Of a stretch of 38,916 bases of DNA, positions 17,056-37,871 are shown in pieces. The DNA lies in the IMG/VR virus record IMGVR_UViG_3300022939_002818, positions 1-38,916 of that record; one strand, 5' to 3'. Every line of letters starts with the position of its first letter. The first letter of the stretch is position 1. This DNA comes from a virus. The translations under genes and the position numbers were made by a program. The notes under the pieces were generated by a model that saw only the letters and a list, made by a program, of their open reading frames with translations, was not told the origin of the DNA and ran no database searches.

Positions 17056-18788
17056 AAAGAGTTATTTTTACATTATATGATGATATAAAAATTGATTCTC
17101 GTAAATATTTAGGAAAGCGTAAAATAGATTTATCTGCTGAAAAAGACGCTAGCGTTGCTAAAGAATTAATTACAAAAGATTATTTTGATTTATTAGTAAC
17201 TAATAAAGAAGACTATGCAAAAAAGATTAATGTAGATTTTAAATTCTTTCATAATACAATGAAGGAATTTGACGTAGATACTGAATTAGAGTTTACTAAA
17301 ATAAATTTATATAAACACCATTTATTTGCTCAACTTGCTGAAGAATATGATGAAGTTATGTATGTTGATATGGATGTTGTGTTTAATACAGATTTAAATA
17401 TATTTGATGAGCACGATTTATCAAAAGGTATTCATATTAAAGATCAAGATTATGATATAGTTTCTAAAAATAAAGAAGCTCTTAATTTAGATCAAGTTGG
17501 TTTAAGAAGTCCTGTTCTCAAATACCATATTACGAAAGATTTATTAGATGGTGGAGATAATCATGTAATTAATACTGGTATTATGCTAGCTAACTCTGAG
17601 CATATTAAAAAAATTCATTTCATTGAAAGAATGAAAGAAGCCATTATAAAAATTCAAGAAATTAAAAAAGAAAATTTAAATCGATTTTTTGAAAATTTAT
17701 ATTTTGCAAATAATGAATCTATTTTTTCATATATTTTAGAAAAGTATAAAATACCTTATGTAATTTTTGATGATAAATGGCATAAAATATATGATCATAG
17801 ACCTGCTGATAAAGTTGATGCTCATTGTATACATTATATTAATAAACAATTCAATGCATTTTTTAATAAGAAAACAAAATGTATTTTTTCATTATATGTT
17901 CACATAGACGATAATAAATTAGATGCTCCTCCAAGCTATCGTGATAATGAAAAAAATAAAAGTAAAATAGCACAAGAACAATTTGCAAAATATGAAAATG
18001 AATTAATTCAAAATCATAAAGATTATGCAAAAGCAATTGATGCAACTTATTTAAGATTTACAAGGGATGAAAAATACGAAAATTTTATAAAAAAATTTCC
18101 TGATTTATCAGAATATGATGCTATAAATTTATATAAAATTTATTTGCTTGATAAACTTACTTATGAGTATGATTATGTCATGTACATTGATTATGATGTT
18201 TGGTTTAGAAATCACAGAGATATATTTGATACTGTACCAGTAGACTATGCTATTTGTTGTCAATATGATGATAAACATAAACTACACATTTATGATAAGT
18301 CTCAGGCGTACTTTACTCATTATCAAAAAGATTTTAGAAATCCACAAGCAAAATATTGGAATGCTCATGCTCTATTAAATGAAGATAATTTAGAACCAGA
18401 TAATAATGTATATAATACAGGTGTTATTTGTGCATCAAGATATGGTATGGATAAATTAGATTATTTTAGTAATATAGATGAGATTATTAAAACAATGAAG
18501 GAACTTAAAGAAGACGAATATTCATTTTATCCAGAAAATATAAGAGCTTCTTTTGGTTATGATAATGAAACTATATTTTCATATAAATGTCAAAAAAATG
18601 ATGTATTAATTTATAGATTACCAGAATCTTTCCACTTTAAACAATATTATGGTAGTAAAGCAGAATTTAATACAAATTCCATTTCTTTTAAAACTGCAAA
18701 AGGAAGGTTCGAACAAATAATGAGAGAGGTAGATGTAACAATTGTTCATCTTATTTCTAAAAATTTTAGCTTAGTATTTGATAAATAG
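17052..18788 (+). CDS. Glycosyltransferase-like protein with tandem duplicated domain
   Basis: A 578-residue protein with two homologous halves, about residues 50-267 and 320-572. Matching landmarks: INLYKHHL with VMYVDMDVVF (DxD at about 106-108) versus INLYKIYL with VMYIDYDVWF (about 380-382); NHVINTGIM versus NNVYNTGVI; NNESIFSY versus DNETIFSY; and IHYINKQF versus VHLISKNF. The DxD and NTG motifs are those of GT-A nucleotide-sugar transferases. The two halves may add two sugars or one may be non-catalytic. Its TAG abuts the next promoter. Confidence 0.7.
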   Translation: MKRVIFTLYDDIKIDSRKYLGKRKIDLSAEKDASVAKELITKDYFDLLVTNKEDYAKKINVDFKFFHNTMKEFDVDTELEFTKINLYKHHLFAQLAEEYDEVMYVDMDVVFNTDLNIFDEHDLSKGIHIKDQDYDIVSKNKEALNLDQVGLRSPVLKYHITKDLLDGGDNHVINTGIMLANSEHIKKIHFIERMKEAIIKIQEIKKENLNRFFENLYFANNESIFSYILEKYKIPYVIFDDKWHKIYDHRPADKVDAHCIHYINKQFNAFFNKKTKCIFSLYVHIDDNKLDAPPSYRDNEKNKSKIAQEQFAKYENELIQNHKDYAKAIDATYLRFTRDEKYENFIKKFPDLSEYDAINLYKIYLLDKLTYEYDYVMYIDYDVWFRNHRDIFDTVPVDYAICCQYDDKHKLHIYDKSQAYFTHYQKDFRNPQAKYWNAHALLNEDNLEPDNNVYNTGVICASRYGMDKLDYFSNIDEIIKTMKELKEDEYSFYPENIRASFGYDNETIFSYKCQKNDVLIYRLPESFHFKQYYGSKAEFNTNSISFKTAKGRFEQIMREVDVTIVHLISKNFSLVFDK

Positions 18789-18817
18789 TTGACATATCTT
18801 GTTTTGTATGATATAAT
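18789..18817 (+). promoter_or_regulatory. Sigma70-type promoter placed at a start codon
   Basis: TTGACA (18789-18794) and TATAAT (18812-18817), 17-base spacer, directly after the TAG of the upstream gene. The -10 box ends only five bases before the ATG of the ArfA-like gene at 18823, so the expected transcript would start on or next to the start codon (leaderless or near-leaderless). Confidence 0.8.
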
Positions 18818-18822
18818 AAACT

Positions 18823-18945
18823 ATGAAAAAGACTAAATCAATAAAAAATAAAATTAAACAAGCGGTTCGAACACCGCTTTTTCGTATGCGTGTTGTAAAA
18901 GATAAGAAAAAAGAATTGAAAAAGTCTGGTAAATATTACGAATGA
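18823..18945 (+). CDS. ArfA-like ribosome-rescue microprotein
   Basis: A 40-residue, very basic protein. Residues 14-30 (AVRTPLFRMRVVKDKKK) match the core of the bacterial alternative ribosome-rescue factor ArfA (DPLFRQRVEKNKKGKGSY in E. coli): PLFR-x-RV-x-K-x-KK is identical in spacing. ArfA recruits RF2 to stalled non-stop ribosomes when tmRNA fails. This copy lacks the long C-terminal tail of chromosomal ArfA and varies after KK (KELKKSGKYYE). There is no Shine-Dalgarno site. Its TGA overlaps the next start (ATGA). A terminator-like hairpin lies in codons 13-20. The assignment rests on a short motif. Confidence 0.6.
   Translation: MKKTKSIKNKIKQAVRTPLFRMRVVKDKKKELKKSGKYYE
18860..18882 (+). 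terminator. Terminator-like hairpin inside the ArfA-like frame
   Basis: A seven-base-pair stem AAGCGGT/ACCGCTT (18860-18866 with 18873-18879), six-base loop TCGAAC, followed by a T-run to 18882. It spans codons 13-20 of the ArfA-like gene. Chromosomal arfA genes also contain an in-frame hairpin or terminator that makes them depend on tmRNA, though nearer the 3' end. Whether it terminates here needs RNA data. Confidence 0.6.
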
Positions 18946-20222
18946 TATTTCTCAATAAAAATCCAAAGAGACAATTTACTTGTTTTAAAAACAAATTATG
19001 GATATATGGATACTCAAATTATTCACACGAAGATCTTTATAACAAATTAGAAAATAGAGATCCACCAAAAGATATACGTGGTCAATTTGCATATGTTTAT
19101 ATCGATAACGATTATTGGATAGGTTGTGTAGATCATTATGCAACTACAAATCTTTACTATACAAAAAATAAAATTAGTGATAACCTTAGAGATCTAATAA
19201 AAGATACAGATCAATTAACTGATTGTAAACTTTGGCATGAACAAAAAAATATAATAAAACAATTTACTGTTGGTGAATTAACTCGCTATAATGAGATTGA
19301 ACAAATAATGCCTGAACATTATTGTATTAATACAAAGCAATCTCGTTATATGGATTTATTAAATGAAGATTCTATCTCTGAACCAGATCCTAATAAAACT
19401 TTAAAATGTTTAGAGAGAATATTTTCTCATATTCATAATCTCGATCCAGTAGTATCGTTTAGCGGTGGTAAAGATTCTGCTTTTCTTGCAATGGCTTTAA
19501 AACATTTTGGATTTAATCCGCGCTTAGTAAAAGTACATAGTGATAATGTAAAAAACTTAATTGATATTAATGCTGCTAAAGATTACGAGAATATAGGATG
19601 GAATATAGAATATCTTAATGTTAATAACACTAGACATTTTTCGAAAGATACTTATTGGTGCGAAGATACACATTGGCATGCCGGCCAATTTTCTGTTAAA
19701 AGACATGCAGTAAAAGATAAAGGCGATATAGCAATGTCTGGTGAAGTAGGAGGAGGATATATTGTAGGTGATATCGTAAAATACTCTCATAATTATTTAG
19801 CATCTACAAATAACCCAAAAATAGAAGATCTAGTAAATATTTTTACTAATGCAACTAGTAGTCATTTTCAAAATACTCCTTCTACTATTATTTCAAACGT
19901 AGAAAAAAATGCTGGATATCATTTTATATTAAACTATTTTACTGAAAAATGGAATAGGATAGATAAAGATCCTTATGAAAAAATGCTTGCATTTTATAGA
20001 ACTGAAATAGCATCTTATCGTTTGTGGGGAGAATCTCAAGATTATGATAATACTTGGTTTAGTTTATTTTCAGATCCAGATTTGGTAAAACAATGGCACT
20101 ATTTGTCCTATAAATATAAAAAGAAGAAAAATAATATGCACGATGTTGCAAAACTATTTTCATCTTATACAGATATAAGTTGGAATTATAGAATTACTGG
20201 GATGTCTATACGTGGAACTTGA
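18942..20222 (+). CDS. Asparagine-synthetase-like PP-loop enzyme
   Basis: A 426-residue protein with an AsnB-like layout. The C-terminal part has the ATP-pyrophosphatase loop SFSGGKDS (about residues 172-179) and a SGEVGGGY motif of the synthetase domain. The N-terminal 130 residues keep the outline of the Ntn glutaminase domain (RGQFAYVYID, DHYATTNLYY) but have no catalytic Cys at position 2, so ammonia must come from another source or a non-glutamine substrate is used. Such proteins activate carboxylates as acyl-AMP to make amides. It overlaps the ArfA-like gene by four bases. Confidence 0.75.
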   Translation: MIFLNKNPKRQFTCFKNKLWIYGYSNYSHEDLYNKLENRDPPKDIRGQFAYVYIDNDYWIGCVDHYATTNLYYTKNKISDNLRDLIKDTDQLTDCKLWHEQKNIIKQFTVGELTRYNEIEQIMPEHYCINTKQSRYMDLLNEDSISEPDPNKTLKCLERIFSHIHNLDPVVSFSGGKDSAFLAMALKHFGFNPRLVKVHSDNVKNLIDINAAKDYENIGWNIEYLNVNNTRHFSKDTYWCEDTHWHAGQFSVKRHAVKDKGDIAMSGEVGGGYIVGDIVKYSHNYLASTNNPKIEDLVNIFTNATSSHFQNTPSTIISNVEKNAGYHFILNYFTEKWNRIDKDPYEKMLAFYRTEIASYRLWGESQDYDNTWFSLFSDPDLVKQWHYLSYKYKKKKNNMHDVAKLFSSYTDISWNYRITGMSIRGT

Positions 20223-20997
20223 TATTAATAATGTAATCTTTTTAAAGAATGATATAGCAGCAACTTATTATAGAGAAAATATATTTCCTCATAATATAGA
20301 ATCTATTATAGTAACTGCTGATTATACTTGGCCTAAAGACGAAAAAGTACGAAATTTTATTTGGGAACAAATAAAAACAGATAAATTAGATGTAATTGCA
20401 ATAGGTACTGATCATTTAGATATGGTTAATAATGTAACACATTTATTTGTGATTGATAAATTTATTTCTAATGATATAGAAAATACAATAGAAGTTATTA
20501 AAAACTTTGGTCAATTAAAACAAATCAAACCAACAACTAAGCTCGTCAATCCAAAATATAATACACCTATTTCTACATTATTAGGATATGAATTTAAAAT
20601 AAAAGAAATTTCTTTTAAGGAAATAAAAGAAATATGGGATAATAAATTATGGCCTGGCTTAGACTCTTTTAAAGTGCATGTAGATTCTAATTATCCTCCT
20701 GCAACAGACGAACCAGACTTTTTCGGTTTATATGATAATAATAAACTTATTGGAGTTAACTCGGGTTATGCTACTGGTATGTATTATCGATCACGAGGAT
20801 TATGGGTAGATCCCAATTATAGAGGAATGGGATTATCTAAATTATTACTCGAAGAAGTGATAAATCAAGCAAAATTACATTTTTGTAAAGAAGTTTGGAG
20901 TTTACCGAGTAAAAAATTTATTTATGCTTTTACAGCAGCTGGATTTACCTGTGATAAAGATTATGAAGAAAACAAATACGTAAGGTTAGTATTATGA
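20212..20997 (+). CDS. GNAT acetyltransferase-like protein, GTG start
   Basis: A 261-residue protein. The last 130 residues are a GNAT domain with GLWVDPNYRGMGLSKLL (about residues 196-212), the acetyl-CoA pyrophosphate-binding R/Q-x-x-G-x-G/A loop. The first 115 residues form a separate domain of unknown family. The start is GTG at 20212, overlapping the upstream gene; no in-frame ATG lies nearby. The stop overlaps the pentapeptide-repeat gene by four bases. Substrate may be an amine or a sugar made by the cluster. Confidence 0.65.
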   Translation: MELDINNVIFLKNDIAATYYRENIFPHNIESIIVTADYTWPKDEKVRNFIWEQIKTDKLDVIAIGTDHLDMVNNVTHLFVIDKFISNDIENTIEVIKNFGQLKQIKPTTKLVNPKYNTPISTLLGYEFKIKEISFKEIKEIWDNKLWPGLDSFKVHVDSNYPPATDEPDFFGLYDNNKLIGVNSGYATGMYYRSRGLWVDPNYRGMGLSKLLLEEVINQAKLHFCKEVWSLPSKKFIYAFTAAGFTCDKDYEENKYVRLVL

Positions 20998-21932
20998 TTT
21001 ATACAAGAAATGGAAAATTAAAATATGATGAAGATTTACTTGATATTATTGCAATAGGAGAAAATCTTACAACAACTCAGCATGACCGAACAGCCGGTGA
21101 TGGTAAATACAAATTTAAGAATTGTGATTTTAGAAATCAAGACTTTAGAGGTGTAAGCTTTGATGGATTAGTAATGGACGGTTGTGATTTTACTGGATCT
21201 GATTTACGTGGTGCTACATTCTATAAAGTTGGTTTAAGATCTGCGATCTTTAAAAGATGTCAATTAGATGGTGCAACATTTATAAATTGTAATTTACGTG
21301 AAGGTTATATGACAGAATGTTGGGCTAAAGAACTTACACTTCAAGATTGTAATTTCATTGGAGCAGATTTACAACATTTAATTGCTCCCGATTCTACATT
21401 TATTGCAAATGATTTCCGTAAAGTAAACGCAAGAAAATCAGATTTCCAAGGTTCATTCTTTGATAAAAATAGAATGCGTGGTATGATTACTCGTAATACT
21501 TCTTTTCATTGGACAAATACACCTAGATTTTTTCATGATGCAGCATTACAATATGATTTTATGGAACCAAATGAATGGGTCATTGGATATAAATTAACTG
21601 CTGCAGATGGTAGAGGAATTTATCATCCAAAGATTACATACGAAGTTGGTAAAACATTTGATGCTGAAAACCAAGATGGTAAACATGTTCCATTACATCC
21701 AAAGCATAATACTGGAATGGCAGTTGCTTCTATGGATTGGGTACTAAAAGAATGGGTATCATGCGGTGCTTATGGAGATTATAAATTATTCCAAGCTAAG
21801 TTCCAAGTAAAAGATATTATAGAGAATGAAGGCTCAGATAAATTTAATGTAAGAAAAATGAAAATCGTTAAAGAAATTGATATGAAACAATTTTACGATG
21901 AAATGACCGAGTCTATAAATTATGACGACTGA
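20994..21932 (+). CDS. Pentapeptide-repeat protein
   Basis: A 312-residue protein. Residues about 40-165 are pentapeptide repeats of the A(N/D)LXX/F type (NCDFRNQDFRGVSFDG, GCDFTGSDLRGATF, DGATFINCNLREG), forming a right-handed quadrilateral beta-helix. The C-terminal 120 residues (EWVIGYKLTAADGRGIY, HPKHNTGMAVAS) form another domain that often accompanies such repeats in phages. The repeat fold mimics DNA in gyrase inhibitors, but many copies are just binding scaffolds. Overlaps the neighbours by four and eleven bases. Confidence 0.75.
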   Translation: MIYTRNGKLKYDEDLLDIIAIGENLTTTQHDRTAGDGKYKFKNCDFRNQDFRGVSFDGLVMDGCDFTGSDLRGATFYKVGLRSAIFKRCQLDGATFINCNLREGYMTECWAKELTLQDCNFIGADLQHLIAPDSTFIANDFRKVNARKSDFQGSFFDKNRMRGMITRNTSFHWTNTPRFFHDAALQYDFMEPNEWVIGYKLTAADGRGIYHPKITYEVGKTFDAENQDGKHVPLHPKHNTGMAVASMDWVLKEWVSCGAYGDYKLFQAKFQVKDIIENEGSDKFNVRKMKIVKEIDMKQFYDEMTESINYDD

Positions 21933-22635
21933 TATTACTGGCAAAGTTGAATTACCAAATTGGTGGAATAAACCAATAGAAGAAAGAACAAAAGACTGGC
22001 AAGATAGATATAAAAAAGATGAAGTTGGCTATGATGATTATATTGGTCAATTTACATATGATACAAGAAAATATACTGGAAAATGGTTATTAAGAAATAT
22101 AAGACATAATTCTGGTAAAGATGCTTTAGTATTAGATGTTGGATGTGGTGTAAATCCATTTAAGAATAAAATCAAAAACTTAATTGGTATTGAACCTGGA
22201 ACTTGGGGTAATCCCGATATTAATATAGATTTAGAAGGAGCTTGTAATATATTTCAAAAAGAATCATTTGATTGGGTATTAGCAATTGGAATATTACATC
22301 ATCATGACGAAGTAACAATACATAAAATGATTCAACAATTAAAATATTTAACTAAACCAGGTGGTTATATAGCATGTTTATGTAAACCTTACGATGACGA
22401 TCCCGAAAAATTATATCATCCAGAGTTTGGTAAACCTGCAAATTTATATCCTTGGTTTGTTGAAACAACCCACATTTTTACAAAAGAACACAAATTAAAA
22501 TATTATCAAGAACCTATTATTGATTATACAGATTTAAGTTTAGTTCCAAATGATATTGAAATAAAAGATAAAGTAGTGAATGGCAGAATTAGAGAAAGGT
22601 TATTTTGGATATGGGAAAAAGATACGACGCTATAG
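21922..22635 (+). CDS. Class I SAM-dependent methyltransferase
   Basis: A 237-residue Rossmann methyltransferase with LVLDVGCGVNPFK (SAM loop, about residues 71-83), GIEPGTWGNPD after strand 2, FDWVLAIGILHHHDE and KYLTKPGGYIACL. It is one of four close paralogs in the window (also 22611, 23479 and 31387), sharing the NLIGI-D/E segment and a terminal W-x-W motif (FWIWEKD). It overlaps both neighbours. Likely substrate: a sugar or small molecule produced by the cluster. Confidence 0.8.
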   Translation: MTTDITGKVELPNWWNKPIEERTKDWQDRYKKDEVGYDDYIGQFTYDTRKYTGKWLLRNIRHNSGKDALVLDVGCGVNPFKNKIKNLIGIEPGTWGNPDINIDLEGACNIFQKESFDWVLAIGILHHHDEVTIHKMIQQLKYLTKPGGYIACLCKPYDDDPEKLYHPEFGKPANLYPWFVETTHIFTKEHKLKYYQEPIIDYTDLSLVPNDIEIKDKVVNGRIRERLFWIWEKDTTL

Positions 22636-23486
22636 AAGTTGGTAAATCTCCACGTGAATGGAGATTAGAAAGACTTAAAGATCACTTCTCACAAGATTGG
22701 GCAGAGATTATTCGTGTAACAAGTCCAGCAAAAACTGGATCTGGTTATACTGCAGCAAGAGTTATTAATAAACTAAATCCAGGTTTAGTACTTGATATTG
22801 GTTGTGGTAATAATATGATGAAACAATATATTCCTAATTTAATCGGAATAGATTTATTACCATATAATGGCAATGCTGATATTGTTGGTGATGTAATGGA
22901 TATCCTTCCACGCTTTAAAGATAATTCTGTAGATGCTATTAGATCTGTTGGTCCTTTTAATTTTGGAACAAAAGATGAGATAGTAGAATTAATATTAGAA
23001 TGCAAACGCGTATTAAAGCCAGGCGGGTTAATATGCTCACACGCGAGACCTGGTAGAATATCAGATGAAACACAATTTCAGCAGCGTGGTATGATTCATT
23101 ATCCTTGGACAAGAGATGCTATTCGCCAATTCTCAAATGAATTAGATTTAGAATTACTTGATCCTAATCCTTCTGTACCAGATTTAAAACAGGATATTAT
23201 TACAGAATTTACTGATATGAAACAAGTACCGTGGGAGGTATTAGAATCTTATTGTGATAGATATACTCCAGAAACTACAACAGTTGACGAATGGAATAGA
23301 TGGATAGATCGTCAAACTGATAATTCAGAAATGCTAGATCCTACCGAAGTATATGAAACCTATGATCACATTAGACATGTGTGTTATAATGAAAGATATA
23401 GAAGATTAAAAGACGATAGGTATGATCCTACATTCCCTGATGGTGTAAGACCTAGATTTAATTGGTGGTGGAAAAAATATGAATAG
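22611..23486 (+). CDS. Class I SAM-dependent methyltransferase
   Basis: A 291-residue methyltransferase with LVLDIGCGNNMMK, NLIGIDLLPY, a GPFNFGTKDE motif IV region and RVLKPGGLICSHARPG. The ATG at 22611 is preferred to a TTG six bases upstream. It ends in RFNWWWKKYE, the shared W-x-W end of the paralogs. It is longer than its relatives because of an extra C-terminal helical region (about residues 200-270). It overlaps the gene before it by 25 bases and the gene after it by eight. Confidence 0.8.
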   Translation: MGKRYDAIEVGKSPREWRLERLKDHFSQDWAEIIRVTSPAKTGSGYTAARVINKLNPGLVLDIGCGNNMMKQYIPNLIGIDLLPYNGNADIVGDVMDILPRFKDNSVDAIRSVGPFNFGTKDEIVELILECKRVLKPGGLICSHARPGRISDETQFQQRGMIHYPWTRDAIRQFSNELDLELLDPNPSVPDLKQDIITEFTDMKQVPWEVLESYCDRYTPETTTVDEWNRWIDRQTDNSEMLDPTEVYETYDHIRHVCYNERYRRLKDDRYDPTFPDGVRPRFNWWWKKYE

Positions 23487-24087
23487 ACGATTGTTAGAAC
23501 AAGTAAAACAACAATTTGAAGAATTTCCATATACAAAGGAAAAATTCTTAACACATTCAAAAACTAATATGAATTTAGTAGATGAATTAAAAGAAATAGA
23601 AGGATTAGTTATTGACGTTGGTTGTGGTATTAATCCATATAAAGAACATGTAAAAAATTTAATTGGTTTAGATGTTGCACATTATCCAGAGTCAGATTTA
23701 ACAATGTCTGTCGAAGAAGCATCAAATATATTTCAACCCGGTTGTGCAGATTGTGTAATTGCATTAGGCTCAGTTAACTTTGGTGAGTTTGATAATATTA
23801 TGAATCAAATTGGTATTATGATTGATTTAGTAAAACCTGGTGGAAAATTAATTATAAGAGCAAGACAATTAAGTGAAAGAAAAATAGTTCGTAATCAAAA
23901 AGCATTTAGACATCATGGTTGGACATTAGATGAAGTTTATCAGGTATATGAAAAGTATAAAGATAAAGTTGAATGGATACATGAACCAATAGAAGAAACG
24001 GCTGCTGCGGGTAAAATCGGAGCTCCTGGACAAGCAGATGAAGAAGCAATAATGAGATTATTTGTATGGCGATGGAAAAGAAAATAG
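23479..24087 (+). CDS. Class I SAM-dependent methyltransferase
   Basis: A 202-residue methyltransferase, third in a tandem series. Landmarks: LVIDVGCGINPYK, NLIGLDVAHYP, CADCVIALGSVNFGE and LVKPGGKLIIRARQ, ending in LFVWRWKRK. The close match to the genes at 21922 and 22611 indicates local gene duplication followed by divergence. The next gene begins inside its last 22 bases. Confidence 0.8.
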   Translation: MNRRLLEQVKQQFEEFPYTKEKFLTHSKTNMNLVDELKEIEGLVIDVGCGINPYKEHVKNLIGLDVAHYPESDLTMSVEEASNIFQPGCADCVIALGSVNFGEFDNIMNQIGIMIDLVKPGGKLIIRARQLSERKIVRNQKAFRHHGWTLDEVYQVYEKYKDKVEWIHEPIEETAAAGKIGAPGQADEEAIMRLFVWRWKRK

Positions 24088-24749
24088 TTTTTATAACAGG
24101 TGTACCCGGATCTCGATGGGGAAGACTTGAATACATTTTAAGAAATGAAACTTCTAATATAATTGATAATTCATGTTGGATGCCTCATTTACAAGATACA
24201 CCAAGTAATGGTACTGAACATTATCATAGATTCTTTGGACCATATCATCAATATGGAGAAAGATTCGATCAATTAGCATTAATGGGGAGAGATGCTATAT
24301 TGCAAGAAATTGATAGAGCATTTGATGGTGATGGAATTAGATTTGTAAGATGTCATTGGTTTGCTTATCAATTAGATTGGATAAAAGAAAATTTACCAGA
24401 AGTTGATATATTAATGATGATGAGAGAACCACAAATGTCATTAAATTGGTGGTTAGAATCTGGTGGTTGGGATATTCAATATCCACAATATCATTGGTAT
24501 GGAAATACATCAAATATGAGACGTCAAATCTTTATTGAGAATGAATGTATGGAAAAATTCATTAAAGAAAATAATCTACAAATGAATTATAATGTTTGGG
24601 ATATGCCTGATTGGATAGATGAAAATTGGCCTGAATGGAAAGATTATTTACCAAAGAATAAAACATATCATCATAAATTAAGAAAAGAAGAAGATAAAAC
24701 ACTTTGGCCTGTTTTATATCGCGGAATAAATAGTATTACACATATTTAG
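24066..24749 (+). CDS. Sulfotransferase-like P-loop protein
   Basis: A 227-residue protein with an N-terminal ITGVPGSRW loop (about residues 10-18), positioned like the 5'-phosphosulfate loop of sulfotransferases, and ILMMMREPQMSLNWWLESGGW (about 117-137), positioned like the 3'-phosphate-binding R-x-x-P-x-x-S. A paralog with the same GxPGSRW and R-x-P-x-x-S-x-x-WW motifs lies at 26833. A kinase-type P-loop function cannot be ruled out. It would transfer sulfate from PAPS to a sugar or other acceptor. Confidence 0.55.
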   Translation: MAMEKKIVFITGVPGSRWGRLEYILRNETSNIIDNSCWMPHLQDTPSNGTEHYHRFFGPYHQYGERFDQLALMGRDAILQEIDRAFDGDGIRFVRCHWFAYQLDWIKENLPEVDILMMMREPQMSLNWWLESGGWDIQYPQYHWYGNTSNMRRQIFIENECMEKFIKENNLQMNYNVWDMPDWIDENWPEWKDYLPKNKTYHHKLRKEEDKTLWPVLYRGINSITHI

Positions 24750-24758
24750 GAAACACGC

Positions 24759-25394
24759 ATGCAATTAGAAAAATATCATTATGATAAGTGGAAAGAAGAT
24801 CCAGAAGGACGACACTCTAAAATTCTTGGTGTGCTTGATTATGATTTAGAAGATGAAATCGCAAAAGCTAGAAGTAAAAATCCAAAAGAAAAATGGTATA
24901 GTGCTCGTGGAATTTATGAAGTTTATCCTGAGATTAAAGAAAAATTAAAAGATGAAGTTGGTGCTAATACTAAAATGTTTAGTAAACTTGAATTAAAAAC
25001 ATTCGAAGAATTTCCAAAGTTTCATCTTATTTTTGATTTATTCCATTTAGTTGGTGACACAAAATTTAAATTCAATGATCAATTACCTGGTCATATTTTA
25101 ATGGAACATGTAGATAATTTTCCAGACATGCCAGATAAAGAAAAAGTATATGCAAAAGAACATTTAGATAATAGAGTAAGATTCTTAGTAATGCTTGCAG
25201 ATTGGGAGCCTGGACAAATGGCGCAGTTTGGTAATAGAACTTATACTCAATGGAAAAAAGGTACAGTCTTTCATTGGGAATTTAATACTACTCCTCATTC
25301 TACTGCAAACGCATCTTGGATTGCTAGACCAGCATTGCAAATTACAGGCGAAGCAACGGAAAAAACATGGGAAATTATTAAAAACGGTTTATAA
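24759..25394 (+). CDS. 2-oxoglutarate/Fe(II) oxygenase-like protein
   Basis: A 211-residue protein with the double-stranded beta-helix iron triad H117-V-D119 and H180 plus the 2-oxoglutarate-binding R190 (MEHVDN, TPHSTANASWIARPALQ). Such enzymes hydroxylate amino-acid residues, nucleotides or small molecules. It has an upstream AGGAAACACGC leader after the sulfotransferase-like gene, and its TAA overlaps the next ATG (TAATG). A second oxygenase with the same residues is at 30044. Confidence 0.65.
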   Translation: MQLEKYHYDKWKEDPEGRHSKILGVLDYDLEDEIAKARSKNPKEKWYSARGIYEVYPEIKEKLKDEVGANTKMFSKLELKTFEEFPKFHLIFDLFHLVGDTKFKFNDQLPGHILMEHVDNFPDMPDKEKVYAKEHLDNRVRFLVMLADWEPGQMAQFGNRTYTQWKKGTVFHWEFNTTPHSTANASWIARPALQITGEATEKTWEIIKNGL

Positions 25395-25966
25395 TGAAAG
25401 TATTAATTTCTAGTACAATACTACCCGGAATAAATCCAGACTTTACATTTGATGCCATCGAACATGGATTTTATCAAATGTTTAGAGATCATGATATCAC
25501 TGCTTTATTAAATAGAAAAAATAGTTATAAAAAATTAGCAAAAGAGCATGATTTATTAGTTTTATCAGGTGGAAATGATACACCACAAAGAATAATTACT
25601 GAGATAGATGCAATAAAGCATTTTAGACTATTAGATAAGCCTATTTTGGGTATTTGCCACGGAGCTTTTTTATTAACTCAATTAATGGACGGCAAATTAA
25701 TAGATATAGAAGGTCATAGAAGAACAAGACATAAAATAACATATAAATATACTAGTAGAACAATAAATTCATATCATGGTTCTACTATAGTTAAAGAACC
25801 TGAAGATTCTGAAGTTTTGGTAAGAGATGAAGATGGTCATATAGAATCTTGGATTAAAGGTAACGTAATGGCCGTTGTTTGGCATCCAGAAAGAGAAGAA
25901 GATTTTTGGGTACCTGACGAAATAAAAAAATATATAGGAGTAAATACAAATGACAATGACCGGTAA
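25394..25966 (+). CDS. Class I glutamine amidotransferase-like protein
   Basis: A 190-residue protein with the complete class I GATase triad: C88 in GICHGAF, H164 and E166 in VVWHPERE. LVLSGGND (about residues 55-62) supplies the oxyanion Gly-Gly. It is most like stand-alone glutaminases or gamma-glutamyl hydrolases of the PuuD/C26 type. It may supply ammonia to the AsnB-like protein at 18942, which lacks its own catalytic cysteine; that link is inference. It overlaps the diiron protein gene by 17 bases. Confidence 0.75.
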   Translation: MKVLISSTILPGINPDFTFDAIEHGFYQMFRDHDITALLNRKNSYKKLAKEHDLLVLSGGNDTPQRIITEIDAIKHFRLLDKPILGICHGAFLLTQLMDGKLIDIEGHRRTRHKITYKYTSRTINSYHGSTIVKEPEDSEVLVRDEDGHIESWIKGNVMAVVWHPEREEDFWVPDEIKKYIGVNTNDNDR

Positions 25967-27477: not shown

Positions 27478-27489
27478 ATGAGGTAAATA

Positions 27490-28533
27490 ATGAAAAAATT
27501 AATCGCGCTTTTTGCGATTTGTTTCGCAACAGCTGCTTCTGCAGCAACAATCGAAGTTCAATATCCATCTAAACCTGGAGCACAAGGTACCACTCTATGG
27601 GGTGATACAGTTGTAAAAGAACTTCAAAACTATACTGACCACACTTTAGTACCAAGATTTGTATCAGGTGCTCGTGGTAAAAAATCTTTAAAGTCGTATT
27701 CTTCGACAGATAAATCAACACTACTTATTACACACGGTGGTAATGCAGAAGCTTTCCTACTGGAAAATGTTGGTGATTTCGATTATGCAAAATATGATGC
27801 AATGGTCGTAATGAACTCATCAATGTGGATTTCGAAAGTTGCTAATCGTAAAGGTGTAATGACATTCCCACTTGATGGTGGATCTGGGTTTGGTCCTGAT
27901 TGGATTTCAGTTGGTATGATGGAATGTGGTCCAGAAAAATCTGCAAAGGTTGATACTTTCCTACAATGTGTTAATAAGAAAATGCGTTTAGTCGGTGGTT
28001 TCAAAAAAGGTGGTGTGAGACGTAAAGCATTTAATGATCAGTTACTACAAGGTAGTCGTGATACGATGGCTTCTGCTTTAGCTGCTTCTGAAAGACAATA
28101 TAAAGCAGGTACTCATGTAGTTTGGTATTCACATGGTATTGTTGATAAGAATGGAAAATACGGTGATCCGAATAACGAAAAAGGTAAGCAAACATTTGAA
28201 GAAGCATATAAACTTCAATATGGCGTAGATCCTTCTGGTGAAGTATATGACGCTTATCGTTTAAATCAAGCATATCGTGATGGATTGCAAAAAGCAATCT
28301 TTACTCATAAAGATAATCCATATAAAGATGATATGAATAAAGCAATTAGTAAAATGTTAGAAGATAAAGATGCTGTCGCAAGACTTCAAAAGAAACTTGG
28401 TAACTATCCTTGGTTAGGTGCTAAAGACGCATCAACACACTCTGAATATATTACTAGTATTAAAACAGAAGAAAATTCTAAAAATCTATTAAAAATCGCT
28501 AAAGACTGGTTCAGATACGACGTTAAGAAGTAA
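27490..28533 (+). CDS. TctC-like periplasmic solute-binding protein
   Basis: A 347-residue exported protein with a signal peptide (cleavage about residue 18, ASA|AT), then EVQYPSKPGAQGTTLWGDTVVKELQ, the typical start of TctC/Bug proteins, in which the first loop binds a carboxylate ligand. It is followed directly by a TctA-like permease (stop/start overlap TAATG), as in host tripartite tricarboxylate transporter operons. It should capture a small organic acid in the periplasm. Confidence 0.65.
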   Translation: MKKLIALFAICFATAASAATIEVQYPSKPGAQGTTLWGDTVVKELQNYTDHTLVPRFVSGARGKKSLKSYSSTDKSTLLITHGGNAEAFLLENVGDFDYAKYDAMVVMNSSMWISKVANRKGVMTFPLDGGSGFGPDWISVGMMECGPEKSAKVDTFLQCVNKKMRLVGGFKKGGVRRKAFNDQLLQGSRDTMASALAASERQYKAGTHVVWYSHGIVDKNGKYGDPNNEKGKQTFEEAYKLQYGVDPSGEVYDAYRLNQAYRDGLQKAIFTHKDNPYKDDMNKAISKMLEDKDAVARLQKKLGNYPWLGAKDASTHSEYITSIKTEENSKNLLKIAKDWFRYDVKK

Positions 28534-30047
28534 TGATTGAATCACTCATTTCGCTCCCACTGTATTTGCAGTGGGGTATCATTATTACAGCAGGAGTATT
28601 ATATGGATCTCTTATTGGTCTAATACCTTCTGCTGGTCCAGCAAAAGCATTAATACTACTCTTTGGATTAGTTCAATTATTTGATATTCCTGGAGCAGAA
28701 TACTTATTTGTATTATTTGCAATTGCAGTAATGGTATCGTGTTCTATTGGCGATTCATTTGCTTCGGTACTCATTGGCATCCCAGGAGCTGATGGAACCG
28801 CAGCGACAATGGTAGATGGTTTCCCTCTCGCGAAACAAGGTAAAGCATCATACGCATTGTCAGCAGCAATAACCACTTCTACACTTGGTGGATTATTGTT
28901 TGGAGTTGTTGGATTCTCTTTGTTTCCAATGTACAATCTGATTAGTGATTATATAAGTGTACCAGAAATATTTGGTATGATTGTTTTATCCTTCTCACTT
29001 ATTACTCTTATTACTACTCGCTATGCAATACGTTGTTTAATTGCATTAGCATTTGGTTTGTTTGTAGGATTAATTGGTTATGATATGTACTCGACTCCAA
29101 GATGGACTGGTGGATGGGAATATCTAGTTGATGGCGTATCAATAGTTATTGTCACCGCCGGTTTATTTGCAATGCCAGAATTATTAGAAGTTCTAAGAAA
29201 TAAAAATGAATATTCTAAGATTGATAAGAAACATCATAATCAACAAACTTGGCAGGGCATTAAAGATACATTTAAACATTGGTGGATTGCATTTCAAGGT
29301 TCACTTATTGGTTTTATTGTAGGTGTATTACCCGGAACTGGTGGAGGAATAGGAGATTGGTCTGCATATACTGCAACAACTGCTATTTCTAAAAAAGAAA
29401 AAATTCCATTTGGTAAAGGTAATATTAAAGGTGTAATTGGCAGTGAGGGTGCAAATAATTCCGGTAAAGCTGGAGCACTTCTTCCTGCATTCTTATTTGG
29501 TATTCCAGGCAATCGTGGTGTTGCAATTATCATGGCTCTTTTCATGTATGTAGGCTTTGAAATGGGCACGGTTGCTTTAGTAGAAGATCAGCAATTTATA
29601 GATCATTTATACTGGGGATACATGTTAGGTACTGCAATCGCTGGTATTGTACTCTTATTATTTGCAAGACAAGTATCAAAAATAGTTTATTTAAAACCAA
29701 TCTATTGGGTTCCTATAATGGCAGGATTAACAATATGGTCTGTATTAGCGGCTAATTATTATGTAACTTGGTGGGAGGATTTAACATTACTCACATTCTT
29801 TAGTATACTTGGTTACTATATGAAGAAATATGAATTTAGTCGTCCGGCATTTTTAATTGCATATTTCTTAGCAGAGAGACTTGAAGGTTCATTCTTTCAA
29901 ATACAACAACTATATTTTATGGATGGAAACTACATAAATAATCCTATATGGAGTATGCATCCTATAATGACAGGTTGCTTAATATTCGCATTAATGATTC
30001 TAATTTATGGAATTAAGAGAGATAAATCTCTTACAACATACTCATGA
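28533..30047 (+). CDS. tctA-like: TctA-family tripartite tricarboxylate transporter permease
   Basis: A full-length 504-residue TctA protein with ten or more transmembrane helices. Diagnostic segments are the N-terminal GLIPSAGPAKALILLFGL, FASVLIGIPGADGTAATMVDGFPLAKQGKASYAL and, in the second half, GVLPGTGGGIGDWSAYTATTAISK and GSEGANNSGKAGALLPAFLFGIPGN. These paired GxPG-type motifs mark the duplicated TctA core. A TctB subunit is not present between TctC and TctA. It would import a carboxylate using the ion gradient. Confidence 0.9.
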   Translation: MIESLISLPLYLQWGIIITAGVLYGSLIGLIPSAGPAKALILLFGLVQLFDIPGAEYLFVLFAIAVMVSCSIGDSFASVLIGIPGADGTAATMVDGFPLAKQGKASYALSAAITTSTLGGLLFGVVGFSLFPMYNLISDYISVPEIFGMIVLSFSLITLITTRYAIRCLIALAFGLFVGLIGYDMYSTPRWTGGWEYLVDGVSIVIVTAGLFAMPELLEVLRNKNEYSKIDKKHHNQQTWQGIKDTFKHWWIAFQGSLIGFIVGVLPGTGGGIGDWSAYTATTAISKKEKIPFGKGNIKGVIGSEGANNSGKAGALLPAFLFGIPGNRGVAIIMALFMYVGFEMGTVALVEDQQFIDHLYWGYMLGTAIAGIVLLLFARQVSKIVYLKPIYWVPIMAGLTIWSVLAANYYVTWWEDLTLLTFFSILGYYMKKYEFSRPAFLIAYFLAERLEGSFFQIQQLYFMDGNYINNPIWSMHPIMTGCLIFALMILIYGIKRDKSLTTYS

Positions 30048-30514
30048 ATAAGTATTGTAAAATAATAAAAAAATACGATTTAAATAAAATAAAAGAAGAG
30101 ATAGAAACTCTTCCATATTTTGAAAAAGAATTGTGCTTACAAGGTATAAATCCAGATTCTGATTATAATGAATGTTTAGGAAAAATTGAAAATTTAAAAT
30201 ATCCAGAAGATTCATTTAAATATCCATTATTTGATATTCCATATATTAATTCAATATTAGAAGAAAACAAAATATATAGGACGAGATTACTAATATTAAA
30301 GCCTCATACTTGTTATTCTTGGCATAAAGATCGTACATTTAGATATCATATTCCAATCATAACACATCGAAAATGTAAATTTGCATTTGAAGATTTAGTA
30401 TTTCATATGCCCGCTGATGGAAGTTTATATGAAGTAGATACAAGACAAAAGCATACTGCATTTAATGGTAGAAATGACGAGGGGAATCGTTTACATTTAG
30501 TTGGAAATATATGA
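30044..30514 (+). CDS. Aspartyl/asparaginyl beta-hydroxylase-like oxygenase
   Basis: A 156-residue 2-oxoglutarate/Fe(II) enzyme fold with H94-K-D96 (YSWHKDRTFRYHIP), H137 (RQKHTAF) and R149 (NRLHLVGNI), the exact residue order of the Asp/Asn hydroxylase family. It is much shorter than chromosomal members. It overlaps the TctA gene by four bases and the next gene by four bases. Substrate could be a protein residue or a free amino acid. Confidence 0.7.
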   Translation: MNKYCKIIKKYDLNKIKEEIETLPYFEKELCLQGINPDSDYNECLGKIENLKYPEDSFKYPLFDIPYINSILEENKIYRTRLLILKPHTCYSWHKDRTFRYHIPIITHRKCKFAFEDLVFHMPADGSLYEVDTRQKHTAFNGRNDEGNRLHLVGNI

Positions 30515-30879
30515 AAAAGCCAGATAACGTAGTGGATGCACCAGGATTAACACAATATCCAACTAATGTTGGCGCGCCAGCGTTTACTGTTCCTGCAGTT
30601 CTAACAAAGAAAAGAGAGCGAGGAGCAAATGCAAGAAATCAATTAACAACGCATTTTGAAGAATTAAAAAAAGAATACTTTAGATTATCTCAACTAGCAG
30701 AAGATACTGAAATGGTTTATAATTCTAAATTTAGTTTTAATCCAGTTGTTGGTAGAACTTATCATTTGTATATGAGTAATGATGGTTTATTTTTAAGTAT
30801 GATTGAACCAGAAAGATGGAATATGGAACATCATGGAAGTTTTAAATTGACAAGCGAACATACTTGGGAAAGAATATAA
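30511..30879 (+). CDS. DUF2452-like protein
   Basis: A 122-residue soluble protein. The C-terminal half (NPVVGRTYHLYMSNDGLFLSMIEPERW) resembles the uncharacterised DUF2452 family, in which the same Tyr/Leu and EPERW pattern is found. It is coupled to its neighbours by ATGA and TAATG overlaps. No catalytic residues can be pointed out. Function unknown. Confidence 0.6.
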   Translation: MKKPDNVVDAPGLTQYPTNVGAPAFTVPAVLTKKRERGANARNQLTTHFEELKKEYFRLSQLAEDTEMVYNSKFSFNPVVGRTYHLYMSNDGLFLSMIEPERWNMEHHGSFKLTSEHTWERI

Positions 30880-31385
30880 TGAAAATAGCAATAACTGGAC
30901 ATACAGAAGGAATTGGAAAAGCCATATATCAAGCTTATCTTAATGAAGCCGATGCATTAGCGATTGGGTTTTCAAGACAAAACGAGCATGATATTTCTGA
31001 TAAAACATGGTATAATAAATTATTAGAATTTGATGTTGTTATTAATAATGCACACGAAAAAAATTATCAAATAGATTTATTACATTTTCTTGCTAAAAAT
31101 AATTTTAAAGGTAAAATAATTAATATGGGATCTATTAGTTCTGACGGGGAAAAACAAGAAATCCGTCCTTATTCTACTTGGAAAGCAGCACTTGAACATG
31201 CTAATGCTCAATTATATAATATTGGTTTTAATACTTGTATACTTAAACCAGGATTAATTGATACACCAAGAGTAGAAGGAAGATTTCCAGATAAAGAAAA
31301 AATGCATACTGATGATATTGTTAAAATAATTAAATTAGTTATTGATAGTAAATTTAGATTTAAACAAATTACATTTGGAGAATAA
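30879..31385 (+). CDS. Short-chain dehydrogenase/reductase
   Basis: A 168-residue SDR with AITGHTEGIGKAI (NAD(P)-binding TGxxxGIG, about residues 3-15), VINNAH (NNA motif) and the YSTWK catalytic Tyr-x-x-x-Lys, with a preceding MGSISS serine. The start at 30879 overlaps the upstream TAA. It is about 80 residues shorter than typical SDRs but keeps the active site. Substrate unknown. Confidence 0.8.
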   Translation: MKIAITGHTEGIGKAIYQAYLNEADALAIGFSRQNEHDISDKTWYNKLLEFDVVINNAHEKNYQIDLLHFLAKNNFKGKIINMGSISSDGEKQEIRPYSTWKAALEHANAQLYNIGFNTCILKPGLIDTPRVEGRFPDKEKMHTDDIVKIIKLVIDSKFRFKQITFGE

Positions 31386-31386
31386 T

Positions 31387-32013
31387 TTGCTTAAAAGTAG
31401 AGATTTAGATACATTAGAAAAGATTATTGCTAGATATAATTGCGAGGAAGAATTTCGCAAAAGAGAATTAGCATTATATCGACAAAAGTCTGGATTGGAC
31501 TTAGCATTAGAAGTTCAAGCAAGTAAACCAGATTTAGTAATTGATTTTGGTTGTGGTGGAAATTTATTTAAAGATTACATAGATAATCTTATTGGAATAG
31601 ATATTACACCTCATCCTAAAGTAGATATTGTAGATGATATACATAATGCATTAAATTATTTTAAACCCAAATCTGCAGATTGGATTTTTAATTTTGGCGT
31701 GTATCAATTTCAATCTAATGATGGAGAAAAACAAACAGAAATAATGTCTGAGTTAATTAAAGATAATGGAACTATTGTAGCACACTGTAATAGAATCGCG
31801 CCAGGTACATTATCTATACATGATTCAGAAGAATATATAAAATTATTAGGTGCCCAATATGGTCTTAAAACTACAGAAATTGATTGGAGTTATACAGATA
31901 CTACAAAAATGACACCCGAACATTTAAAAATACAAAAAGAAGTAGCCAAATGGAGTGAGTTTGAAATGAAAGATTTAATTTCTCCAAGATTAACATGGCG
32001 ATGGAATAAATAA
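31387..32013 (+). CDS. Class I SAM-dependent methyltransferase, TTG start
   Basis: A 208-residue methyltransferase paralog: LVIDFGCGGNLFK, NLIGIDITPHP, ADWIFNFGVYQF and terminal LTWRWNK. The TTG at 31387 is chosen because GGAG at 31377-31380 lies six bases upstream and the SDR stop is just before it. In place of the usual KPGG it has KDNG. It is about 7 kb from the other three copies, in the second half of the enzyme region. Confidence 0.75.
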   Translation: MLKSRDLDTLEKIIARYNCEEEFRKRELALYRQKSGLDLALEVQASKPDLVIDFGCGGNLFKDYIDNLIGIDITPHPKVDIVDDIHNALNYFKPKSADWIFNFGVYQFQSNDGEKQTEIMSELIKDNGTIVAHCNRIAPGTLSIHDSEEYIKLLGAQYGLKTTEIDWSYTDTTKMTPEHLKIQKEVAKWSEFEMKDLISPRLTWRWNK

Positions 32014-32031
32014 TATTAAAGGAGAATGAAT

Positions 32032-32598
32032 ATGCACAATGTGGAAGGTCAACAAAGTAAACTTAAAGAGCTTACATGGGCTCATCATCAATCAGCAGAG
32101 CGAAGAGCTTTTGCAAAAGAACTTATTAGTGGCTCAATCGATACAGAAATCTATTATAAATTTTTACAATGCCAATTTTTAAATTATCAAGTATTAGAAA
32201 AACACTGTAAAATTCCAGAACATCTTTACCCAATTCGTAGATCTGATCGTATCTTTCAAGATATTCGTGAGCTTGAATCAGAATACGGATTTTCACCAAA
32301 CGGAAAGTTCCCACCTTCAGTAGATCAATATGAAAGTTATATTAATGAAATAGCAAATGATAATGAGAGACTATTAGCACATATGTATGTGCGTCATTTT
32401 GGTGAATTGCATGGTGGTCAAATTATCAAAAACAAAACTCCAGGTTCAGGTATGATGTACGAATTTAATGGAGATACAAAAGTCCTTATTTCAGAATTTA
32501 GAAAACTATTAAATGATGATATGGCAGATGAAGCAAAAGTTTGTTTTGATTTCGCATCACAGCTTTTTGATGAAATGTCAGAAATGATGAAAAAATAG
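32032..32598 (+). CDS. Heme oxygenase
   Basis: A 188-residue heme oxygenase. LKELTWAHHQSAE contains the proximal heme ligand (H19) and YVRHFGELHGGQ the conserved distal glycines. The ATG at 32032 fits the GGAG site (32021-32024) better than the ATG at 32026. The enzyme opens heme to biliverdin, releasing iron and CO, using ferredoxin. A bilin reductase lies about 1.1 kb downstream. Heme oxygenase/bilin reductase pairs are known in cyanophages and other oceanic phages. Its TAG abuts the next promoter. Confidence 0.9.
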   Translation: MHNVEGQQSKLKELTWAHHQSAERRAFAKELISGSIDTEIYYKFLQCQFLNYQVLEKHCKIPEHLYPIRRSDRIFQDIRELESEYGFSPNGKFPPSVDQYESYINEIANDNERLLAHMYVRHFGELHGGQIIKNKTPGSGMMYEFNGDTKVLISEFRKLLNDDMADEAKVCFDFASQLFDEMSEMMKK

Positions 32599-35546: not shown

Positions 35547-36479
35547 ATGTCATTCGACGCACTCAAAAAGAATCGTTCAGCTTCGCTCGATAAACTGAAC
35601 AAACAACTAGAAAACATTTCACAAAAATCTTACTCAGATCCTAACGAAGGAAAGTTTTGGAAGCCAACTCGCGATCAAGCAGGTAATGGTTTTGCAATCA
35701 TTCGTTTCTTGCCAGCACCTAATGGTGAAGAAATGCCTTTTGTACGTATCTGGGATCACGGTTTCCAAGGTCCTACGGGTCTTTGGTATATCGAAAATTC
35801 TCTTACTACTTTAAATCAAGATGATCCTGTATCAGAATACAATGGTAAACTTTGGAATAGTGGTGTTGAAGCTGATAAAGAACAAGCACGTAAACAAAAG
35901 CGTCGTTTGAAATATGTCGCTAATATCCAAGTTATTAAAGATTCTGCTAATCCAGCAAATGACGGTAAAGTATTCCTTTATCAGTTTGGTAAAAAGATCT
36001 TTGATAAATTGAATGATCTTATGAATCCACAATTCGAAGATGAAACACCAGTAAATCCATTTGATCTATGGGAAGGTGCTAATTTCCGTCTTAAGATTCG
36101 TCAGTTCGAAGGTTATCCTAACTATGATAAATCTGAGTTCGAAGCTCCATCACCTCTATCTGAAGATGATGCAGTGTTAGAATCGATTTATAATCAAGAG
36201 CATTCATTGCAAGATTTGATTGATCCTAAGAATTTTAAATCTTATTCTGAATTGAAAGCAAAATTACACCGTGTACTTGCACTTGGTGAAGCTCCAATTG
36301 AACCTTCTACAGCAGAAGATAATATTGAAGCAGATGATCTAGATCTAAGTAAAATGGGTAATAATGAGAAAGTAGCATCTGCTCCAGAAGCTCCTGCTGC
36401 ACCTCAAGAGTCATCAGCAATGAATATGGCAGATGATGACGATGATCTTTCAATTTTTAAGGAACTAGCAAATGGCTAA
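35547..36479 (+). CDS. 32: Single-stranded DNA-binding protein gp32
   Basis: A 310-residue gp32: basic N-terminal B domain (MSFDALKKNRSASLDKLNKQLE), the OB-fold core (IIRFLPAP, FGKKIFDKLNDL, WEGANFRLKIRQFEGYPNYDKSEF) and an acidic C-terminal tail (MADDDDDLSIF) for partner proteins. The protein has no cysteine: the zinc ligands of T4 gp32 are gone, though a His (H71) remains in WDHGF. It coats single-stranded DNA and recruits UvsX, gp59 and gp41. Overlaps the next gene by eight bases. Confidence 0.9.
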   Translation: MSFDALKKNRSASLDKLNKQLENISQKSYSDPNEGKFWKPTRDQAGNGFAIIRFLPAPNGEEMPFVRIWDHGFQGPTGLWYIENSLTTLNQDDPVSEYNGKLWNSGVEADKEQARKQKRRLKYVANIQVIKDSANPANDGKVFLYQFGKKIFDKLNDLMNPQFEDETPVNPFDLWEGANFRLKIRQFEGYPNYDKSEFEAPSPLSEDDAVLESIYNQEHSLQDLIDPKNFKSYSELKAKLHRVLALGEAPIEPSTAEDNIEADDLDLSKMGNNEKVASAPEAPAAPQESSAMNMADDDDDLSIFKELANG

Positions 36480-36801
36480 TAAAACCTACGAGGAGCTCTT
36501 AGACTTTGACTTTGGCTTCAGCTTTATCGACGAGGAACTCGAAGAAAAACAAGCTGCGGCCGAAGAAACCATTCAACAAGTCAGTAGCGAAAAGCAAACT
36601 TTAGAAGATCAATTAACTGACGCTAAAGTAAAAGCTGACGACCTTGAATATCGTCTAGAACTTTTATATAAATCAATAACACCGTTTTTAGACAATTTAT
36701 GTCAAAATGCGGATAAGTCAACAATTTATTGGCCTGATCGTGTTTCAAAGATTAATGCCTATAAAGCAAAACTATTAACAATTGTAGATGGAGGGTCTTA
36801 A
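36472..36801 (+). CDS. Coiled-coil protein between gp32 and UvsX
   Basis: A 109-residue protein. Residues about 25-65 form a Glu/Gln/Lys-rich coiled coil and the C-terminus has the conserved-looking NADKSTIYWPDRVSKINAYK. A protein with this IYWPDR-type motif is a widespread companion of T4-like replication genes, but its role is not established. It is translationally coupled to both gp32 and uvsX through overlapping codons. Confidence 0.65.
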   Translation: MANKTYEELLDFDFGFSFIDEELEEKQAAAEETIQQVSSEKQTLEDQLTDAKVKADDLEYRLELLYKSITPFLDNLCQNADKSTIYWPDRVSKINAYKAKLLTIVDGGS

Positions 36802-37871
36802 TGAGTCTATTAGATAAGATTGTAAAAAATAGTACCATTAAAATGACTGCTCCTATTGCAGAGTCAAAAGTTTTTGGTAAAAAAGATATGGCACCAACAT
36901 CAGTGCCTATGGTAAATGTTGCATTATCTGGTAATTTAGATGGTGGTTTAACTCCAGGACTTCTTGTTCTGGCTGGACCATCTAAACATTTCAAATCTGC
37001 TTTCGCTCTTTTAATGGCTTCAGCATATATGAAAAGAAATCCAGATGCAGTATTATTGTTTTATGATTCAGAGTTTGGTACACCACAAGCTTATTTCGAA
37101 TCATTTGATATTGACATGAATCGTACAGTTCATACTCCAGTTACAAATGCTGAAGAACTTAAATTCGATATTACTTCTCAACTTGATAAGATTGAAAAAG
37201 GCGAGAAGGTTATTATTGTAATCGATTCAGTTGGTAACCTTGCATCTAAGAAAGAGGTTGAAGATGCACTTGACGGTAAATCAGTTGCTGATATGTCACG
37301 TGCTAAAGCACTTAAATCTCTATTCCGTATTGTAACACCACATTTAAATCTTAAAGATATTCCACTTATTGCAGTTAATCATACTTACAAAGAGATTGGA
37401 TTATTCCCTAAAGATGTTGTGTCTGGTGGTACAGGTATTTACTATTCAGCTGATGCAATTTGGATTATTGGTCGTCAACAAGATAAAGTTGGTACAGAAA
37501 TTCAAGGTTATCATTTTGTAATTAACATCGAAAAATCTCGTCATGTTAAAGAAAAATCTAAGATTCCTATTACAGTAAGTTGGGAAGGTGGTATTCAAAA
37601 ACTATCTGGACTTATGGAAGTTGCTGAAAAAGGTGGATATATTATCAAACCAAAAGTTGGTTGGTATCAAGCTGTAGATCCATCTACTGGTGAAGTTATT
37701 TCTGGCGATAAAAATTATCGTGCGAAAGAAATAGTTGACAATCCAGAGTTTTGGGATATAATATTTAATAATACAGATTTTAAAGATTATATTAAAAATG
37801 CTTTTTCAGTGGGAGGAAGTGTTATAATCTCTGATGATGAAACAGTGACTGAAGACGTAAAGGATGATTGA
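36801..37871 (+). CDS. uvsX: UvsX recombinase
   Basis: A 356-residue RecA/UvsX protein with the T4-type Walker A LAGPSKHFKSAF (about residues 57-68) and Walker B VIIVIDSVGNLAS (about 133-145). NHTYKEIG and GGTGIYYSAD are the DNA-interacting loop region. It forms filaments on gp32-coated single-stranded DNA to start recombination-dependent replication. The last codons overlap the gp41 gene by eight bases. A promoter is embedded near its 3' end. Confidence 0.92.
   Translation: MSLLDKIVKNSTIKMTAPIAESKVFGKKDMAPTSVPMVNVALSGNLDGGLTPGLLVLAGPSKHFKSAFALLMASAYMKRNPDAVLLFYDSEFGTPQAYFESFDIDMNRTVHTPVTNAEELKFDITSQLDKIEKGEKVIIVIDSVGNLASKKEVEDALDGKSVADMSRAKALKSLFRIVTPHLNLKDIPLIAVNHTYKEIGLFPKDVVSGGTGIYYSADAIWIIGRQQDKVGTEIQGYHFVINIEKSRHVKEKSKIPITVSWEGGIQKLSGLMEVAEKGGYIIKPKVGWYQAVDPSTGEVISGDKNYRAKEIVDNPEFWDIIFNNTDFKDYIKNAFSVGGSVIISDDETVTEDVKDD
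37735..37762 (+). promoter_or_regulatory. Sigma70-type promoter inside uvsX
   Basis: TTGACA (37735-37740) and TATAAT (37757-37762), 16-base spacer, about 100 bases before gp41. The -35 again falls on ATA GTT GAC in frame. It would boost gp41 independently of uvsX. Confidence 0.7.

Follow-up and report, generated by a model that had tools for sequence, protein, structure and literature searches.

A TctC-like binding protein and a TctA permease encoded together without TctB by a clade of mostly T4-like phages

Bacterial TTT systems and transport genes in phages

To our knowledge, binding-protein-dependent import is the only mode in which TTT systems operate, and we know of no established role for TctB. 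Bacterial TTT systems (TctABC, TpiBA-TphC, AdpC and MatC) combine a TctA permease of family PF01970 with a binding protein of TctC/Bug fold, encoded by adjacent and coupled genes, and in these respects the phage gene pair that we describe here resembles them. The phage pair differs in being virus-encoded, in having no TctB, and in specifying a binding protein that is 10–15% identical to the solved ones and altered at the P-F-x-A-G-G-x-x-D signature. In the one TTT system that has been tested, TpiBA/TphC of Comamonas, uptake required each of the two membrane subunits, and archaeal TctA occurs without TctB (PMC5812351).

The closest annotated gene order is that of alphaproteobacterial TctC–TctAB operons (Thalassospira, Shinella, Sagittula and Palleronia plasmids), in which TctC is followed directly by TctA, with no gene in between, and which adjoin 4-oxalomesaconate tautomerase or tricarballylate genes. 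The TctA encoded there is 29–33% identical to the phage TctA. Unlike the phage genes, these operons specify a permease of about 645–676 amino acids with a C-terminal TctB domain and a binding protein that mostly retains the signature phenylalanine and aspartate, and they have two-component regulator genes nearby.

In the literature that we searched, the sole viral precedent was a tctA domain match on SUP05 viral contigs, recorded as 'protein domain hit only' with its role given as unknown (Roux et al., 2014, PMC4164917; listed in PMC6359870). Like our locus, it places TctA on marine viral contigs; unlike our locus, it is a domain match alone, with no TctC, TctB or clade described. A second parallel is PstS of cyanophages, a phosphate-binding protein reported as gained from the host (PMC10976474), with which a T4-like marine phage likewise provides a periplasmic binding protein to the infected host. 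The locus described here differs from that case in that the permease is also phage-supplied and the transport is of the secondary type.

A coupled gene pair in a T4-like phage fragment

The window (the whole stretch of DNA that we analyzed) is a linear virus record of 38,916 bases with 31.5% GC. Because its right end carries genes for gp32, UvsX and gp41 (Table 1), we assign it on gene content to a T4-like phage; the nearest relative of its gp32 is that of Methylophilales phage Melnitz (62%). A linear, possibly incomplete metagenome fragment could in principle be bacterial or chimeric, in which case the transporter would not be phage-encoded. This reading is extremely improbable, as the three replication and recombination genes lie 5.5 kb from the transporter pair on the same strand, two near-identical contigs from other samples each contain gp41, and a relative carries the pair between tail-sheath stabiliser and terminase genes, with genes for the sheath, tube and portal coming next. 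The records of further relatives contain gp23 and terminase. The pair thus sits in a phage genome beside hallmark genes, as is expected of phage auxiliary metabolic genes. Scanning the window for Rfam families and tRNA genes gave no matches, and a search for enrichment of the T4 late promoter TATAAATA found none.

Table 1. Features of the transporter locus and phage hallmark genes in the window.
Feature	Position	Strand	Evidence
'GxPGSxWS' family protein, 214 aa	26833..27477	+	recurs near viral tctA/tctC
GAGGT ribosome-binding site of the binding-protein gene	27480..27484	+	sequence; 5 bases upstream of the ATG at 27490
TctC-like periplasmic binding protein, 347 aa	27490..28533	+	tblastn, AlphaFold2, Foldseek, profile search
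Predicted Sec-type signal peptide MKKLIALFAICFATAASA of the binding protein	27490..27543	+	sequence reading; hydrophobic segment at residue 5
TAATG stop/start overlap joining the binding-protein and tctA genes	28531..28535	+	sequence
TctA permease, 504 aa, full length	28533..30047	+	PF01970 (288 bits); alignment; AlphaFold2 (pLDDT 85)
Asp/Asn beta-hydroxylase-like protein (2OG oxygenase)	30044..30514	+	PF05118 (E 8e-5); sequence
T4 gp32-like single-strand binding protein	35547..36479	+	phrog_224 (E 2e-117)
UvsX-like recombinase	36801..37871	+	phrog_97 (E 2e-82)
gp41-like replicative helicase, truncated by the contig end	37864..38916	+	phrog_19 (E 2e-94)

Both transporter reading frames lie where the original prediction had placed them, and the direct coupling that it proposed is borne out by the overlap of the stop codon of the first with the start codon of the second. 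It was also correct in describing a full-length TctA permease: the PF01970 match spans residues 17–441 (E 1.4e-85). PHROGs returned no match to TctA, and a Foldseek search with the model of the permease found no solved relative. The further claim that both core GxPG-type motifs are intact holds for the TM7 motif (G-SLI-G-FIV-G-VL-PGTG) and for both GIPG motifs, but the TM1 copy reads PSAG rather than PGxG, with serine replacing the glycine that follows the proline. The duplicated glycine-proline motif is therefore present in TM1 and TM7 with one substitution, and P32 and G35 are invariant among the viral TctA sequences.

The binding protein is harder to recognize. Pfam, NCBIfam and PHROG searches with it gave no match, and a single-sequence search of the PDB returned nothing significant, a catalase match being spurious. 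With tblastn, residues 206–340 matched proteins annotated as TTT binding proteins in Paracoccus, Rhizobium and elsewhere (best E 7e-6), and a profile of the family searched against the PDB retrieved BugD (E 2e-21), BugE and MatC, at E 2e-21 to 2e-18. We aligned 43 viral with 42 bacterial relatives; the AlphaFold2 model built from this alignment had a pLDDT of 92 and a pTM of 0.90, and the top 17 PDB matches to this model in Foldseek were all TTT binding proteins (TBP, BugE, BugD, TphC, MatC, Bug27 and AdpC; E 4e-9 to 2e-7, TM-score ~0.5–0.6), which ruled out a TRAP- or ABC-type protein. Judged by predicted fold and family profile, the window protein is of the TctC/Bug fold, though far diverged, in agreement with the proposed TctC-like secreted binding protein. 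When the viral contigs were scanned for conserved motifs taken from the mixed alignment of binding proteins, nothing matched because the patterns were derived from bacterial motifs. Common family libraries miss this system, PHROGs having no match to its TctA and Pfam being blind to its binding protein.

Distribution of the pair and the whereabouts of TctB

A scan of IMG/VR found TctA relatives on 284 viral contigs, of which we read the best 80. A second scan, led by a bacterial TctAB query and aimed at fused forms in viruses, added 74 newly read loci on ~50 new contigs, bringing the viral contigs examined over both scans to ~130. Throughout these contigs TctA was 457–531 amino acids long and had no TctB domain, and a binding protein nearly always adjoined it. 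All 76 complete TctA ORFs of the first scan were 474–531 residues long, and a binding protein, nearly always touching, lay on the same contig in 77 of 80 cases, the other three having TctA at the contig end. In the second scan (TctA 457–504 residues, best identity 36–38%), no viral match extended beyond residue 524, such that the TctB domain was never reached, and the pair was present at 71 of 74 loci, with the remaining three cut by contig ends. The binding-protein gene comes first in the window and its close kin, and tctA comes first at most other viral loci. The carriers are many uncultured phages, mostly T4-like. The family is absent from the deposited phage genomes of INPHARED, in which we found only 23–27% matches to host-like TctA.

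The original prediction held that TctB is missing between the two genes. It is indeed gone altogether, but the space between the genes was the wrong place to expect it, as bacterial relatives carry TctB either fused to the C terminus of TctA or just downstream. The extra 150–180 C-terminal residues of the bacterial permeases matched TctB weakly but consistently (PF07331, E 2.5e-5 to 4.5e-4), and in the alignment the window TctA stops at this A/B junction, where its bacterial relatives run on into the TctB domain. Among complete permeases at bacterial loci, 79 of 85 were at least 600 residues long, with TctB fused to the TctA C terminus, and five of the six short ones had a separate TctB-like ORF just downstream or adjoining. 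The sixth lies on a 106,270-bp contig (PBDY01000027.1) binned in the MAG 'Gammaproteobacteria bacterium SP335'; because this contig carries the T4 major capsid gene gp23, we take it to be phage DNA, and its TctA nests within the viral clade, which ruled out a cellular origin. TctAB fusions are common in Alphaproteobacteria and others at the frequency just given, which comes from a sample biased to this subfamily; a 2018 review gives a single case.

Within the window, TctB was absent both between the genes and elsewhere. A four-helix neighbour that might serve as an unrecognized TctB was ruled out: the other same-strand ORFs of the window have at most one predicted transmembrane segment. In the flanks of viral TctA genes from the first scan, nothing matched a profile built from the TctB domain of bacteria. 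By means of TctB profiles, the suggested search for a tctB-like gene elsewhere was extended to 31 whole viral records (the window and 30 relatives, up to 359 kb and mostly fragments), and no partner for the pairs was found. The sole TctB in these records belongs to a separate canonical TctB–TctA pair on a 182-kb phage contig, 45 kb from the viral-type pair. Because most of the records are fragments, an unrecognized small membrane subunit could lie elsewhere in these genomes. As no four-TM TctB subunit, separate or fused, was found in the window or the 30 related records, the pair should not be filed as TctABC; its parts are by homology TTT parts, and the assembly may yet work like one.

Two viral records hold additional transport-related genes. 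The canonical TctB–TctA pair occupies positions 116985–118918 of the T4-like 182-kb contig (G011; L176:8986-10919) and is followed by a possible TonB-receptor-like ORF (L176:13251-14861). A 328-kb phage contig (G023) has a second, very divergent TctA together with a 320-amino-acid secreted protein, which has no Pfam match, and no TctB (L179:7172-9687).

In the TctA tree, the viral sequences, including that of the SP335-binned contig, formed one side of a branch with support of 100 and a long stem (SH-aLRT 97–100 for the viral clade), and in the binding-protein tree the viral sequences were wholly separate from the bacterial ones. When rooted with a canonical TctA outgroup, the viral clade fell inside TctB-bearing bacterial lineages (supports 82–98, to be read with caution given a very long row), a nesting most simply explained by loss of TctB on the viral stem. 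The absence of TctB and the altered pocket signature might also be expected if the pair were bacterial passenger DNA in decay that had already lost TctB. However, the genes are open, coupled and full-length across ~130 contigs and monophyletic with a long stem, and the median dN/dS was 0.06 for tctA and the binding-protein genes alike, which contradicts decay, shows purifying selection on both genes, and makes the passenger reading very improbable.

The original prediction had the phage using host TctB or none. In the first case, the phage TctA and binding protein would plug into a host TctB and add a new specificity to the host membrane complex. TctB was essential in the sole tested bacterial TTT, and the canonical pair on the 182-kb contig means that phages can carry TctB. 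Yet TctB was absent from the ~130 viral contigs, and the nearest bacterial subfamily usually has it as a covalent part of its own TctA, with no free subunit to lend. Moreover, conservation of TctB is low, and many phages belong to the clade. Neither the bin that contains a clade phage nor any of the ten relatives closest to that bin has a TctA of its own, although the phage–host link there is weak. (We did not accept MAG SP335 as the proven host of that phage, as the link by composition is weak.) Use of host TctB is thus unsupported and, in our judgment, unlikely, and TctB-free import is the more probable reading.

Binding pocket, neighbouring genes and a model for import

The P-F-x-A-G-G-x-x-D loop of TctC proteins contacts the ligand carboxylate through its main chain and through water (PMC5812351). 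At this loop the window protein reads PSKPGAQGTTLW, and across the viral set the proline and glycines are kept while the phenylalanine is replaced by glutamine or serine and the aspartate by serine, alanine or threonine. In window numbering, R178 and R190 are invariant in the viral proteins (43 of 43) and position 62 is arginine in 34 of 43; the bacterial relatives have arginine at position 178 in 30 of 42, mostly tyrosine or phenylalanine at 190, and glycine at 62. If these three arginines face the ligand, it is probably strongly anionic. Loss of ligand-pocket residues had been named as a result that would count against transport, and the canonical phenylalanine and aspartate are indeed lost; the new invariant arginines, however, leave a decayed pocket unsupported. 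The proposed citrate-like substrate is likewise unproven, because the signature differs from that of known TctC proteins, and the substitutions appear to favor neither a citrate-like ligand in particular nor a pocket in decay.

At one viral locus (L024:5712-8004), two binding proteins of different types stand in tandem ahead of a single TctA, an arrangement that suggests swapping of specificity. Binding proteins seem to have been exchanged or differentially kept between viral loci, as the window protein is sister to the first of these types and other close permeases pair with the second.

The surroundings of the pair raise another possibility. The pair lies among methyltransferase-, radical-SAM-, acetyltransferase- and oxygenase-like genes; across viral loci, methyltransferase-like genes occur near tctA/tctC at 59 of 79 and GxPGSxWS genes at 50 of 79. 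Together with the altered pocket signature, these neighbours would suit a pair that exports or recaptures the product of adjoining phage modification enzymes, or that acts in envelope signalling or superinfection exclusion. Against this, the strict pairing of permease and binding protein in two gene orders indicates binding-protein-dependent import, and defence models gave no match; we consider such roles rather improbable.

The 2OG oxygenase gene begins within an ATGA overlap with the tctA stop codon and is probably part of the same transcript. It belongs to a long same-strand island of enzyme genes (14765–25966 and 30044–32598) with radical SAM, several methyltransferase, GNAT, pentapeptide, class I GATase, diiron/ferritin-like, 2OG oxygenase, SDR and heme oxygenase members, which looks like a phage-borne small-molecule modification pathway. 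A second GxPGSxWS paralogue is found at 24066–24749; this family has no Pfam, PHROG or PADLOC match.

Taken as a whole, the identity and fold of the genes, their coupling and phage context, the monophyly of the clade, the absence of TctB, purifying selection and the signature changes, all of which come from sequence and its comparison, are in our view probably best explained by an old, phage-adapted, two-component TTT-type importer that is independent of TctB. We infer inward transport, ion coupling, an anionic substrate, TctB independence and a benefit to the phage. In this model, the secreted TctC-fold protein would pick up a small anion in the periplasm of the host and pass it on to TctA, which would use an ion gradient to bring the anion into the cytoplasm with no involvement of TctB; an old viral clade would have lost TctB and acquired arginines in a remodelled binding pocket. 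The TctA core may not need TctB, because archaeal TctA proteins occur without it. The requirement for both membrane subunits in Comamonas TpiBA/TphC would, by analogy, speak against the model, as would the canonical TctC signature not being retained. The coupled, TctB-less pair of the original prediction has nonetheless been borne out as a phage-encoded unit.

Through this pair, infected cells may take up a nutrient that is probably negatively charged. A bolder version, in which a large phage clade has a truly TctB-independent two-component TTT with an arginine-rich ligand site that imports a substrate some hosts otherwise cannot, we hold more tentatively, at somewhat short of even chances. 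Nature here offers a test of the need for TctB, in a viral lineage that is widespread, is under strong selection and retains TctA and TctC while consistently lacking TctB. If the bolder version is true, the phage pair would be a minimal TTT system that reveals what TctB is for. The pair also suggests that phages give infected cells a complete binding-protein-dependent importer, beyond a PstS-type binding protein alone. The family is present on hundreds of contigs from uncultured viruses, and it could redirect how infected cells take up dissolved organic anions.
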